A stretch of 64,000 nt of DNA, from contig CM034534.1 in assembly GCA_020002185.1 (NCBI GenBank), positions 30,523,851 through 30,587,850 of the forward strand, written 5' to 3'. The DNA is from Paraescarpia echinospica (lineage: Eukaryota > Annelida > Polychaeta > Sabellida > Siboglinidae). Below, piece after piece: positions 16,301 to 63,762 of this stretch (position 1 is its first letter; each line of letters begins with the position of its first letter). Below the pieces are notes generated by a model. It saw only the letters and a list, made by a program, of their open reading frames with translations, was not told where the DNA came from and did not search any database. Both the position numbers and the translations under genes were made by a program.

Positions 16301-19300
16301 GCACCAAGGGACCGATAAAACGAAACGCAGGGCGATACAAAACGTGTACTGGCCTGGCATTAGTAACAATATCGCTACGACAGTGACAAGTTGCAATAAA
16401 TGCTAAAAACTCCGACCTTCTCAGCAACGCGAACCACTGAGATCAGAACCTCTACCAAACAGGGTGTTTGAAGATATGTCAGCAGACTTCTTCCACAACG
16501 CCGGACGAGATTATCTCGTCTAAGTAGATCGACTCTCAGGATGGCCTGTGGTCTTCCATTTCCCAAAGGCTAAGACTACATCCCGCCACACCATCTATGC
16601 ATGGCGACGAGCATTTGTGGAGCTTGGAGTCCCAGTGCGATTTATATCTGATGGTGGTCCTCAGTTCGTGTCTCGTGAGTTTAACCAGTTCTTAAACCGC
16701 TGGGGCATTCGTCCCGCACCATCCACACCACATTACCACCAGTCCAACGGACATGCCGAGACTGCGGTGAAAACAATGAACAAACTCATTGCAACAACAA
16801 CCGTGAATGGAGATCTGAACGATGAGAATTTCCAGCGAGGACTTCTAGAATACCGCAATACTCCTCGTGCAGGTGGCCTCTCCCCTGCACAAATCCTCTT
16901 TGGACACCCACTGCGATCGGCAGTAGCCGCACACCGACAATCGTTTGCAAGCTAGTGACAACATGTGGCGGATAAGCAGGATGCTGGCTGCGGGCAAACA
17001 CATGCACGGGGCGAAGAGCGTTACAATAGGCAATCCCGTCCTTTACCACAGCTACGCATTGGTGCACAAGTAAGATTGCAAAATCCCCTTACAAAAAAAG
17101 TGGAATAAAATAGGCGTGGTAGTCGGAATTGGCCGACACCGCGACTATCATATGAAACTGCCCAGTGGTCGTGTCTACTGGCGCAACCGCCGATACATCA
17201 AACCGGACACGGTACAGTCGGGAGAGAACGATGTTCGTGTCCACAATACTGCGGAAGGTAGCAACACAGGCCACGTTGAACGAGACATTTCATCGTCCTC
17301 CCACAACAAACTGCGACGTGGTAAACGTCAGAAGATGCCTCCCAGTAAACAGCGACTCTAAGTCCTCCAATGTTCGGACTTTTAAAAAAGAGAGGAGGGA
17401 ATTGGTGTAGTTTCTCCTCACATAATGGGACCTCCCGTCTCTGATGAGAGACCACGAGGAAGATCAACATCGCTTAACAGTGATTTGGTGGCTCACGCTA
17501 TTGTATAACAATTTACCGTTTCTGGTACGTAATAAACAATGTTTGGTTCTGTTGCAATATCTCATTGAGTATAAGCATTAACTTGTACTACTTATTATTT
17601 CAACACATATTCAGTATTTCATAATTGAGCTGTAGATAATTGTGGTTTTTGAAAATTCAGATTCCACACCGCAGTGTCTATCGCATTGTTTGCCTTCTTA
17701 CTATCATCAGTATGAAGTAAATTAAATGAATATCATTCAAGCATAGTCGAAATAGTACGATCTCCCCGACACCGTCCATAATCTTTGTTTTCAAGTTGCA
17801 ACTTGTGTCCTTGTTTCATTGACATGCCAACAAACGATTATGCATAATTATTTTATTATTTAAGAAATAATTATCACACGTTATCTGTGGGCCGTCATTG
17901 GTCGACAAGCATGTCCATTGACCGGAATTTGGGTCGCAATCAAAACAGGTTAAAAACTGCTGGTTGAAGTGAATATTAAAACTCCGACAAACACGAATAA
18001 ACGTAGATAGATTTAATGTAGAAAATGAAACGAGAGTTGTTTGAAAATGGCAAAATGATGGTGCTAACGAACATACGCGTGTTTACATATAGTTATATAT
18101 TGTCCACCACTTACACAGATGAAATGTTACCTCCAGGTGTTTGAGCTGCTTCTCCAAGGCAACGTAATCCCGCGCGATAGACGAAATTTTCGTCGACATT
18201 TCTTTCAGATCTGCACCAATGAAACGTATGTACTTCAAATTAATAATAATCTACCAAGCAAGTTTGCAAATGCGCATATTTGATGGCATAAGCGTGAAGG
18301 TAGGTGGTGTCGTGATCGTTAACGTGGGCGTGGCTCTAAATGTATGCAAGGTGTGGGTAGTGGGTCAAACTTTTACTTCGCACACACAACCGTCTTACTT
18401 TTGTGTAAGTCTATGCCTCCCACTCCGCTCCGTTGTATAACTCCCCTTATGTTTCTCCCAATCGCCGGCCCTAGCGCTGTAATAGACAAACGCGGAACAC
18501 ATGTTCACACACGAGCAAATCCGCACGCACACACACACACACATACACACATAATTATATATATTTATATATATATATATATATACCTATGTATATCTGC
18601 CTAATTACAAACCTACTTACATACATACAAACACGCACTCACGCACTCACGCACTCACGCACTCACGGTGCACTTTCTCGTTTGTTGTAATGTATTATTG
18701 CCTAATTACCCACTTGAATTACACGTTTAATGGATAATTATAACCAATTTAGAATAAATATGCCGTATTGTATTCTATTACGATCTGGGGGTAATTATTG
18801 ATACGCAATAAGTGTTTATGAGGCGTAATCGTTACTTACTGTCTAAATCTCTATATAGCACCTGAACCGTGAAATTGAAGTTGTCCTGAAGAAGGTGTTT
18901 GAGTTCCTGCAACACATTTCAAGTGATATGTTTTATAACCAGAGTTCCCTTGGACAACCAAACGCATAACTGTTTGGCCGGTATTACATACAAATCACTT
19001 TCCTTCATACCCGGGAATCATGATGATGTTATTATCGCCTATATTGAAAACATTCCTTTTATCGTGGCTTTGTACTTGCGACATCAACCAATCAGTGGAG
19101 CAAATTACATTGTTACTACCTATGCTTATCGCTTAGCCTGGGTTAATCTGGTTGAATCTGGTTAACTCAACACAACCATCCATGCGATTTAAACTGTCAT
19201 CGATCGTATTGTTAAAGAAAACTTTCGGGTTAGACTCACTACGGTTGTATTGTTAAAGTACACTCCGAGGTTAGACTCCCAACAACTGTAATGTAAAAGT

Positions 19301-22300
19301 ACACTCACAGGTTAAATTCACGTTGACTCTAATGTTATTGCTCTCGTGTTACACTCCCATCCATTGTGTTGTTAAAAGACACTCAGATATTTGAAATGTG
19401 TTGTTATTGTACACTATCAGATTAGACTCACATCGATTTTATTGCTAAAGCACACTCTCTGCGTCTGGTTAGACTAACAACGATTGTAATGTAATAGTAC
19501 ACTATCAGCTTAGACTAAAAACGATTGTAATGTAATAGTACACTATCAGCTTAGACTAAAAACGATTGTAATGTAATAGTACACTATCAGCTTAGACCAA
19601 CAACGACTGTAATGTAATATTACATTATCAGCTTAGACTAACAACGATTGTAATGTAATACTACACTATCAGCTTAGACTAACAACGATTGTAATGTAAT
19701 AGTACACTATAAGCTTAGTCTAACAACGATTGTAATGTAATAGTACACTATCAGCTTAGACTAACAATGATTGTAATGTAATAATTTCACTATCAGCTTA
19801 GACTAACAGCGATTGTAATGTAATAGTACACTATCAGCTTAGACTAACAACGATTGTAATGTAATAGTACACTATCAGCTTAGACTAACAACGATTGTAA
19901 TGTAATAGTACACTATCAGCTTAGACTAACAACGATTGTAATGTAATAGTACACAATCAGCTTAGACTAACAACGATTGTAATGTAATAGTATACTATCA
20001 GCTTACACTAACAACGATTATAATGTAATAGTACACTATCAGCTTAGACTCGCATCGATTGTATTGTTAACGCATATGCCCAGGTTAAACTCATATTGAT
20101 TGTATTAGTAACGTTCATTCTCATGTTAGACTCACGTCGATTGTATTGTCTAAGTACATTCCCAGGTTCCCTTGTATATTGGCCGAAGCGTAATCTGCGT
20201 TCTCGCTTAGTGCAGACGCACGGAAGTAGCTGATCATTGCCATTATCCAGCCGGCCCTGAAATGATACACTATTTCACTCGATTAACTACCGCGTTGTCA
20301 CGATACCATGAGAAGTCGTGTTAAAAAAGACAATCGTGTGGGAAACTGCACATCACAATATAACAGCTTCACAAATATAGAAATACACAAAGAGCGGAAC
20401 GTTTCCCATCCAACTTGACTCTGCAGCAAAGGGTTTACTTTCACATTGTTTATAGCATTTTAAAATAAATTGTTATAATACGATGTGCATTTCTTATAAT
20501 ATTGGGGTGTTCAGTGCAGTATGTAATAATAATAATATTATTAATAACATCAACAACAGTAACAACAATAATAATATGCATATATATCGTCCTGCATCCT
20601 CGGGTATCTGAGCTAATATTGCATATCACGTTTGAGAAGTAGACGTAATTATATTGTAGTATTAACGCTCTTTCTCTGGATCGCAGCAGCAGCAGCCGGC
20701 TGCAGCCAGAAGCAGCAACCAGCAGCAGCCGGCAGCAACCAGCAGCAGCCAGCCGCATGAAGCAGCAGTCAACAGCAGGCTGCAGCAGCCAAAAGCGGGA
20801 ACCTGTAAAACTTTACGAATTGGTCCCGGAACAAGAGACGTCAACCGACACTAACGGACGCAACGCGACTACACCATTCCAACGAACGTACGCCAAGAAG
20901 GTGGTGATACTGAAGAGGCAGAGCATGGACACGCGTCTCTCTGAGTCGGACATCGGTACGAAGGGCCGTAGATTGGTGCCCCCACAGTAGCCGCCGCACC
21001 GCAACACGCAGAAGACGAAGCCAAAGAGCGGCATCGAGGTGGCGAATGCTAGTGCGAGGTAGACCAAATAGCGGACGCGAGGAAAACAGGTGAAGTACCA
21101 CTGAAACGACGACAAACGTCGAGCAAGAATCAGAAGACAATCCTGTCTACTTATCGCGGCGGTCACACTGCGATATATCGTATAGTGATGGGTACGATGA
21201 TTATGAAGACTACGCTGATCACAATACTCTTGATTGTTATGGTGCCTGTGATGACAATGATGACTGTGATGATTACGATGATAATAAAGAAAGAATGGTA
21301 AGGATGATAATAGCAACTATGATGATAATAATTATGTATGAACTTGTCACAAGTTCGTCATAAAAATTCCTCAGTTTCACTAAATACACAGATATGCAGA
21401 TTGGCTTTAGAGTTGTTCGAGCATAAAAGTCATGTTTTATGTTGACGTGTCACAATCATTGAATCATACTCAGTAATTATTGAAAATTCTTATGACAACA
21501 ACTTGATTATAGCTTTATGCAATACAATGTAAATTCCGCATTGTATTAAATCACGTAGATTAAGTACACCTAAATCAACACATCATATATTAGTGTGGCA
21601 TTAAAAGTGTCATTTAACTTAGTCGGATAACTTTGTTTTGTAATATAAAATTACTTTGATAATTGTTTTATATGTACTGCCCCAGACATTACAGCAGTAT
21701 GTTAACCAATGATTGCTAACTATTGATTAAACTTGGTAAATGCCGAAGATCTCACCCATGTGGCTACTATACCATAATAGTACGTTAAAGATGCCGTGCT
21801 AGGAACTCCAACAAAGTGCAACTATTTTTCTCAAGTTGAGATATTGGCGTTTCTACTAGAGTACAATAAGAAAAGGTTGATAATATGGAGTTTGGCAAAT
21901 ACGTTGACGTTGTTCACATTATGTAAAGAACGGAGCGTGACAAAGCGAATACAAATGACTGTTTAAATTGTATTGATAAAACGTCTGATGGAAATATAGT
22001 GCAAACTATGCTATGTTTTCCTATGATACTCACTGCCAAATACTTCGATCCGAACATCGTGCTTAACAACAAAGTCGATATATATAATATGTAGTTTACG
22101 GCCAATTGTGGTTTAATAATGCTAACTTGTGCGAACAGAATGGATACAATTTAAATTGTACGTATATAATATAATTATATGATAGCAATGAGGAAATCCA
22201 GGTGAAAAAGAGTGTACATCTACTTACTTCAATGTTTTCAAATATCGGCTTGTTTCGGGGGTCTATGTATAGTTCTGTAAACAATTACAAAAAACTGAAT

Positions 22301-25880: not shown

Positions 25881-27956
25881 GTTACACCTAATACAACAAA
25901 ACATTTTAAAGCGTCATATTCGGTTTAAGCTAGTAAGAAGCCCTGGTTCAGTCTCATCAATATTTGCGTGCAAAACAAATGCTATAATATTTTTAGAAGC
26001 ATCGCATCAAATTAGCTGACCCCAAATAAATGAAACAACCCCTCCATAACAAAATAATGTTTATTCAAGTGTGCAAATAAATTAATAGTTATACACTGTG
26101 CTCTCAATAAAATTATGTTACCATATAAACTAGGCTATCACTCAATATAATATATACATGACCCTCTCATGCCCATGTGGCTCTAAAGGGAGCAGTAAAA
26201 TATAATAAAATTTCCCCACGTTAAAAGCTAACGCCAGTCTTTTGAAAATTTGTGGCAGAGTTTATGCATATGTTATCTCAAAAAGCATATTACGTTTTTT
26301 CAAACACTTAGTATGAAGAGAATAATCACATCTGTTCGGTTTGTGGTCATGTGGTTTTTGAAGAAGACAAAATTCACGATAATGATGTCACTGGTGTAAT
26401 GTAAATTTTGAGAAAATCACTATTTTTGTTATCCACCTATGTTGACATACTCTCCCTAGTGACAATAATGAATAAAATATATTTTATTTTATAGCGCCAT
26501 ATCCCCGGATATAAAAACCTGTTCAAAGGCGCTTAATGCTCAAAATTACCATGGAAACGGGGGTCTGGCTAAAAAAGGTTCAATATATATTTTGCTCAGT
26601 AAGACCCAATTCATGCATTGGACAGAAAACATTTGTTTGCACAAATTAAAAAATAATCATATCTACCTGCCGTGTCTGGCCTTAAATACAACATTGTTAA
26701 AACATGATCGTTACAATACAACAATTATTTCACATATACAAAGTATAATATAATAAGAACCTAATGTGAAATTTAAATATACATTTGTAAATAAATAACT
26801 TATATAACATAGTGTCGTCTAAATATTGACTATCTAAAAATGTAACTATTTGCTACTTTAAAATCAATCAAGTAATTAAATTAAATAAATACTTAAATGC
26901 AGTATACAATAAACCATGTAATGACGTTAGAATTAAAATATTTTATATATGTGTCATTAACTGGGACTTAAAAAGTTCGATAGAGTCAGCGTCACGGATA
27001 TACAACGGCAGACCGTTCCAAAGGCCCGGTGCCGTCACGGAGAAACCCCGTCGACCGTATCATTCCATGTCGTAGCGAGGCATAGTTAGTAGATTGCTGT
27101 CAGCGGAACGAAGCCGGCGCCCTGGTGTATTATACGACGAGATCAAGTCTACAATGTACGCGGACGCGAGATGGTGTAACGCGCGGTATATCAACAGAAG
27201 AATCTTGTAGTTGATCCGCCATTGTACCGGGAGCCTGTGAAGAGCACAACGAGAGTGAGCGTGATGTGTTGATGGTCGCGACGGCATTGTCTCGTTATTA
27301 GGCGAACCGCCGAATGTTGCACCATTTGTAGCTTCTAGAATAAAAGCACTTTCACTTCAAAAACACAGCATTTCCATAATCCAGTCTGGAAGTAACACAT
27401 GCGTGTACGATCGTCTTGCACGCATGGGTTGTTAAATACTTTCTGATTTTAGCGATCTTGTGGAGCTGGAAATACGCCGACTGACGCGTGCGAGCGACTT
27501 GTGTAGACATACACAAAGTGCTGTCCACGAAGATGCCTATGTCCCGAACAAAAGATTAAGGTGATATATCACACCCACACACGTTGATTGTGTCAACAGT
27601 GGGTGGAGGCTTAGAGTAAGGAACACAGAAGACAATTGCCTGTGTCTTGGCCTCGTTTAACATGAAGTGTTTATCAATCATTCACAGGTTGATGGCAACG
27701 GTGCACCGCTCGATTCTTTCGATAGCACCGTCTACCTCGCAGGGTTGGTCCCGTGGGAATTCCCCGTAGAGTTGTATATTGCCCGCATACGTGTGATAGT
27801 TAACGTTGTGTTTGGCGAATATGGCGCTGATGGACATGCAGTAGATAGTGAACAGGAGGAGCCCAAGAACCGGCATCGGCGACTTTCGTTGCCATCGTCC
27901 GGTTGGATAATAAGTAAGATGTCAGCCATGCTAGTACTCGGCCTCGTATGTCGATC

Positions 27957-28284
27957 GAATGCATCTGCTGTAATAGCATTGTGTGATGCATGGTGTCGAA
28001 TGCATCTGCTGTAATAGCATTGTGTGATGCATGGTGTCGAATGCATCTGCTGTAATAGCATTGTGTGATGCATGGTGTCGAATGCATCTGCTGTAATAGC
28101 ATTGTGTGATGCATGGTGTCGAATGCATCTGCTGCAATAGCATTGTGTGATGCATGGTGTCGAATGCATCTGCTGTAATAGCATTGTGTGATGCATGGTG
28201 TCGAATGCATCTGCTGTAATAGCATTGTGTGATGCATGGTGTCGAATGCATCTGCTGCAATAGCATTGTGTGATGCATGGTGTC
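27957..28284 (-). repeat. 41-bp tandem expansion inside the CR1 RT palm (8 units)
   Basis: GCATCTGCTG recurs at 27961, 28002, 28043, 28084, 28125, 28166, 28207 and 28248. The single-copy counterpart codes for the stretch after DLTAAFDT. Since 41 is not a multiple of three, the frame cycles and yields long spurious ORFs. Confidence 0.95.
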
Positions 28285-28612
28285 GAATGCCGCAGTAAGA
28301 TCGAGTAGAATGAGCACTACTCCCTTTCGACGATCAAGTGCCTGGGTGATGTCGTCATGAATACGGACAAGAGCAGTTTCGGTGATGTGATGCGAGCAAT
28401 AGGCACTCTGGAAGGGAGAAAGAAGTTTGTTTTCGTCGATGTAGGGCCGAAGATCAGCCGCCAAATGCTTCTCCAACAACTTTGAAACAAAGCTGAGATT
28501 TGAAATTGGGCGGTAGTTCTTAATGTCATTTGCATCTATGCCAGTCTTCTTCAGCAGTGGCGTGACTAGCGCATGCTTCATATCGGATGGCACTGTCGCA
28601 GATTCCAGTGAT

Positions 28613-39548: not shown

Positions 39549-63762
<24,214 letters not shown>

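Follow-up and report, generated by a model that had tools for sequence, protein, structure and literature searches.

An exon-intron boundary most likely founded the 41-bp minisatellite that directly follows exon 4 of a prominin gene (gene A), as the first-pass annotation had proposed. Sequence analysis favors the exon, and not a dispersed satellite, as the founder because, among the best candidates scored in a genome search, the 41-bp family was returned only at gene A and its paralog gene B, and because exon 4 is colinear with Pfam Prominin; the end of the exon also recurs in the array itself. Both genes lie in the window, by which we mean the whole 64,000-nucleotide stretch of DNA that was analysed.

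The 41-bp arrays after exon 4 of genes A and B

When exons 3-6 of gene A were joined, they formed one open frame that matched Pfam Prominin at 2.5e-15, with residues 13-136 aligned to positions 97-220 without a net gap (124 versus 124). The features of gene A are listed below; the donor score of 6.62 bits was calculated with generic metazoan PWM frequencies.

20892..21100, minus strand: exon 3 (in-frame join; Pfam Prominin)
20136..20256, minus strand: exon 4, prominin, 121 nt (exons 3-6 join in frame and together match Pfam Prominin)
20130..20135, minus strand: putative true donor GTGAGT (sequence; phase 0 join to exon 5; PWM 6.62 bits)
20129..20169, minus strand: unit 0, 34 exonic nt plus GTGAGTC (unit stepping; exon-tail comparison)
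19191..20128, minus strand: intronic array, about 23 units of 41 bp (Tandem Repeats Finder; unit stepping)
19469..20067, minus strand: homogenised array core, 14.6 copies with 93% matches; most units read GTTAGT at the donor
18840..18906, minus strand: exon 5, paired with the donor of exon 4 (in-frame join, acceptor TTGCAG)
18131..18210, minus strand: exon 6 (in-frame join)

Intron 4 of gene A was 1,229 nt long, of which 938 nt were array. Tandem Repeats Finder reported 41-bp rows at 19206-19321, 19469-20067 and 20040-20147, and stepping unit by unit from the exon, from 20128 to about 19191 on the minus strand, gave about 23 intronic units, a count that agrees with the one proposed earlier and is approximate owing to register slips in units 18-20. 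While the core rows were 93% matched, the edge rows were 74-77% matched. The degenerate donor GTTAGT, which had been assigned to each unit, was found in the homogenised core; the edge units at both ends carried ATGAGT, GCGAGT, GGGAGT or GTGAGT instead, and three GTRAGT sites were left in the array.

The unit was indeed found to span the exon end and the GTGAGT donor, but the division into 24 exonic and 17 intronic bases had to be revised to about 34 exonic nt followed by GTGAGTC (7 nt). The last 34 nt of exon 4, which are purely exonic, had a counterpart in the intron with 26/34 identical positions; among 500 dinucleotide shuffles of the intron, the mean was 17.7 and the maximum 21. Thus, the resemblance between the unit and the 3' end of exon 4 was above background, as had been claimed, and the excess held when the comparison was rerun on the array with 200 shuffles. 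Further upstream in the exon, the next 10-nt blocks matched the sequence 41 nt downstream at only 4/10 and 0/10.

Gene B, a prominin paralog of gene A in a head-to-head arrangement with it, likewise has exon 4 directly followed by an array of the 41-bp family. Its joined exons 3-6 matched Pfam Prominin at 7.1e-10, and had no match to prominin among solved structures. Its features are as follows, with the donor scored by the same generic PWM frequencies.

43773-43987, plus strand: exon 3 (in-frame join; Pfam Prominin)
45042..45162, plus strand: exon 4, prominin, 121 nt, paralogous to exon 4 of gene A
45163..45168, plus strand: putative true donor GTGAGT (PWM 5.96 bits)
45129..45445, plus strand: array, exonic unit 0 and about 6.5 intronic 41-bp units
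55589..55655, plus strand: exon 5 (in-frame join)
57293-57372, plus strand: exon 6 (in-frame join)

The exon tail of gene B recurred in its array at 29/34, with a maximum of 21 among 500 shuffles. One extra base lies between units 0 and 1, and because it breaks the register, a fixed-lag comparison of gene B looks poor; when the two units were aligned without the extra base, they matched at 34/40. Donor positions in the array read GTTAGT, GTTACT or ATTAGT, with no GTRAGT site, and intron 4 extends over 10,426 nt. Genes A and B have in common both the 41-bp period and the start of the array 34 nt inside the homologous exon 4. A search of the 1.08-Gb assembly with the gene B exon and array as query returned four matches of the 41-bp family, in genes A and B only, although the search scores the best candidates only and skips very common words, and "only two loci" is not absolute.

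Other repeats and elements were observed in the window. A second 41-bp array (27955-28290, 8.2 copies, 98%) lies inside a reverse-transcriptase-like reading frame; by eye its sequence is unrelated to the prominin unit, and the equal period is probably a coincidence. A LINE-like reverse-transcriptase ORF (RVT_1) was found at 48456-50150, several retroelement-like reading frames occur between and within genes A and B, and a gene B intron contains a 24-bp array of 29 copies (56170-56865) that is open in frame on both strands.

Boundary arrays in other prominin and SNF transporter genes

Beyond genes A and B, Pfam Prominin had 10 further matches in the genome. Boundary arrays were found at three of these prominin paralogs (C, D and E) and at two SNF transporter loci, of which the following were placed by coordinates.

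L017:4614-7840 (G000:C1:41609613-41612839): paralog C boundary array, 66 copies, 49 bp
L023:5762-6425: paralog E acceptor-side boundary array, 12 copies, 55 bp
L052:2657-3110: SNF transporter donor array, 37 bp
L034:2613-2832: SNF transporter donor array, 33 bp

In paralog C, the array follows an exon whose donor corresponds to the exon 3 donor of genes A and B. Its 49-bp unit, which differs from the 41-bp unit of A and B, consists of the last 36-37 nt of the exon and GTGAGTACAAAG. There are 66 units including the exonic one, 93% alike overall, and 63 of the 66, the true donor among them, have an exact GTGAGT. The unit also holds an acceptor-like TGTAG. Paralog D (L015) has eight units of the 49-bp repeat, seven of them with GTGAGT. 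The genome search, with the best candidates scored, returned 21 matches of the 49-bp family, from C and D only. Paralog E has its array upstream of the exon, where the acceptor and about 31 exonic nt are repeated; this exon scored 34.1 bits on Prominin, just under the cut-off of 34.3.

Two other arrays were seen near prominin matches. A 22-copy array of 53 bp (L023:2165-3336) runs up to the acceptor of the exon that comes next in paralog E, and its units hold CTACAGGTCAGT with a juxtaposition of AG and GT; it was rejected as a second acceptor-side boundary array, since about 8 exonic nt are common and the match of 12/20 was reached by 188 of 200 shuffles. A 36-bp array of at least 168 copies (L021:1-6061 and L022:8413-10000) lies between two prominin matches on C4.

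As for the SNF transporter genes, the exon at L052 scored 49.9 bits on SNF, while the exon at L034 scored 20 bits, under the cut-off of 27, at a locus fetched by an SNF match above the cut-off. Both counted arrays adjoin neighbouring exons in the flanks and not the primary SNF matches: save for the low-complexity L037, none of the 30 primary SNF exon matches had an array (period 12-250) within 20 nt. Arrays at L040 (56-bp unit, GAGGTACGA), L019 and L016 were left out of the count with their exons unconfirmed, and no boundary position was demonstrated for an 80-bp array at L032.

The exonic ends of A, B, C, D, L052, L034 and the first acceptor of E recurred in their arrays above all 200 shuffles. 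Seven of the eight boundary arrays tested thus passed, and in these seven the copies were always on the intron side; with A/B and C/D taken as one event each, they represent about five independent origins. A general rule that minisatellites in this genome derive from boundaries or carry donors was rejected: 44 stretches totalling 292 kb yielded 42 arrays once low-complexity units were dropped, and these had no excess of donor motifs (3/42 at p<=0.05, combined p 0.51). The rows of A and B scored just p 0.35-0.58 in this test because their donors are degraded. At exon boundaries, roughly 0.64 arrays were expected and five were seen (A-E), three of them independent (P 0.028 for at least three), the expectation being based on a rounded number of about 56 exons (10 Prominin matches, 30 SNF matches and about 16 exons in the window). 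Because gene A prompted the search, this figure is weak and we do not claim it; an enrichment of arrays at exon/intron boundaries is suggestive only.

Origin of the arrays

We propose that a local tandem duplication, through replication slippage or unequal exchange, would have copied a 41-bp piece in which 34 nt from the 3' end of exon 4 are joined to the first 7 nt of the intron. Further unequal exchange would then have enlarged the array and homogenised its middle, leaving degenerate units at the edges. Since the new copies would come to lie beyond the original site, within the intron, neither the exon nor its original donor would be disrupted, and the copies would be removed together with the intron; in genes A and B, no usable donor is left in most of them. 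We hold it very likely that the boundary expanded in this manner, mostly neutrally, with the first donor still in use.

Minisatellites are common in this genome, as the 42 arrays kept in 292 kb indicate, and it could be argued that a dispersed satellite or mobile repeat already present in the genome was inserted next to exon 4 and that the exon end was taken from the repeat by exonisation. We rejected this origin as very improbable: among the best candidates scored, the 41-bp family was returned in A and B only, at two loci that are both homologous exon ends, and the 49-bp family in C and D only; the exon end of gene A lies inside the colinear Pfam Prominin match; and in C and D, another unit at another boundary likewise matches the local exon. 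It is scarcely credible that the arrays are artefacts of assembly. Long arrays such as the 66 copies in paralog C are hard to assemble and their copy numbers may be wrong, but the units of A and B are diverged and ordered, with edges unlike the core, and six sites that lie apart in the assembly show the pattern (A/B, C, D, E, L052 and L034).

In view of the equal period and equal start within the exon in A and B, the array probably has a single origin that preceded the duplication into the two genes. Two independent origins after the duplication, at a slippage-prone boundary, appear unlikely to us. They would be consistent with the unit sequences, in which, among 41 sites, one favors a split of exon versus array and one a split of A versus B, so that the arrays of A and B do not group against the exons; boundary arrays have also arisen several times in this genome. 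On the other hand, independent events would have had to produce the identical 41-bp period and the identical start 34 nt into the exon in A and B, and C and D share a 49-bp period as well.

Donor use and comparison with known systems

When reading continues past the true donor, a stop codon follows after 12 nt in genes A and B; in paralogs C and D, it falls at the donor itself. The original donor would therefore be needed for the full protein, and the use of a downstream donor in A-D should give a truncated product or decay. Since the stop lies 12 nt past the donor in A and B, the array as coding sequence was rejected. Gene A probably uses its original exon 4 donor, and the simplest account would be that the array expanded neutrally while the first donor stayed in use.

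The first-pass annotation had also suggested that the array could supply decoy donors or cause intron 4 to be mis-spliced. In gene A (3 GTRAGT sites) and gene B (0), the decoys are mostly disarmed; strong candidate decoys are found in paralog C, in which 62 array sites read GTRAGT with a score at or above that of the true donor under the generic PWM, and the array of paralog D has 6 GTRAGT sites. One could imagine that selection keeps the arrays because their units, as decoy donors or as landing sites for U1 snRNP, would delay splicing or divert some of the transcripts to isoforms with a stop codon (NMD). Such a role would fit the exact GTGAGT in 63 of 66 units of paralog C, the true one included, the high scores of its 62 array sites, the immediate stop met by downstream donors in A-D, and the presence of the array in both members of each paralog pair. 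However, the donors of A and B are mostly degraded, the units of C are 93% alike and their intact donors may only mirror a recent expansion, and regular splicing is described as undisturbed in the amphioxus "mirages" in the passages of PMC3087553 and PMC3902484 that deal with them. We therefore regard selection for a regulatory array as quite unlikely, and prefer the mostly neutral expansion.

The view that arrays of this type had no described equivalent does not stand, as amphioxus mirages (PMC3087553, PMC3902484) and a minisatellite of a human interferon-induced gene (PMC4526556) have been published. Mirages are described in PMC3087553 as minisatellite-like tandem duplications of exon/intron boundaries, with length instability and, in its passages on the subject, no sign of disturbed regular splicing. 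According to the passages on mirages in PMC3087553 and PMC3902484, the host genes are Adh3, the globin genes BflGb6 and BflGb9, and TnC, the periods are 10-72 bp (Adh3) and 150-160 bp (globins), splice signals occur in many but not all units, and the name is reported for cephalochordates only; PMC3902484 mentions mirages in Adh and TnC and draws a parallel between them and PGBD5 repeats.

Judged by the anatomy of their sequences, the present arrays belong to the mirage kind. As in those accounts of amphioxus, tandem units contain an exon end with the intron start, or an acceptor with the exon start; the gene A array has a homogenised cluster (93%) with divergent edges (74-77%); the mirage periods bracket the 41 and 49 bp found here; and splice signals are present on the intron side in C (62 GTRAGT) and D (6). 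Genes A and B have 3 and 0 GTRAGT sites, most of their units carrying the degraded GTTAGT. Unlike the amphioxus cases in these accounts, the genes here encode prominin and SNF proteins in a 1.08-Gb genome, the array of paralog C has grown to 66 copies, 63 of them with an exact donor, and the same array is found in both members of paralog pairs.

The minisatellite of the human interferon-induced gene 6-16 (IFI6/G1P3) supplies multiple splice donors (Turri et al. 1995, as cited in PMC4526556). As in that gene, repeat units at an exon end act as donors or resemble them; according to that citation, downstream IFI6 units are used in real isoforms, whereas the array units of A-D are candidate donors, and reading on past the true donor there runs into a stop. 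The review PMC3443670 summarizes how introns may be gained when AGGT segments are duplicated in tandem in the genome. This similarly involves local tandem duplication of sequence bearing splice signals, but intron 4 of genes A and B has its acceptor outside the repeat units and is not bounded by two copies of such a segment. In human segmental duplications, the cases described in PMC2812944 are minisatellites with units of 30 bp on average that changed gene structure, some of them at exon-intron boundaries, and they resemble the present arrays in that short units alter paralogs. Unlike the arrays here, those cases, as described there, concern recent paralogs, about half of the repeats are in coding sequence, and novel introns were proposed.

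It is possible, although we put it forward only tentatively and think it somewhat improbable, that exon/intron boundaries in this genome are recurrent birthplaces of minisatellites, that the arrays outlast gene duplication, and that old arrays have been disarmed (GTGAGT to GTTAGT in A and B) while young ones (C) offer about 60 equal donors. If the host is not a lancelet, mirages would be wider in distribution than reported in the passages of PMC3087553 and PMC3902484 that describe them. With equal donors beside a real exon, the long-standing question of how the spliceosome selects a single site from dozens of equivalent ones could be tested in nature, and the paralog pairs would offer such arrays both armed (C, D) and disarmed (A, B). 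If boundaries are indeed such birthplaces and the first donor wins, these genes would be natural experiments on how the true site is chosen; if the first donor does not win, the length of the array would tune the output of the gene.
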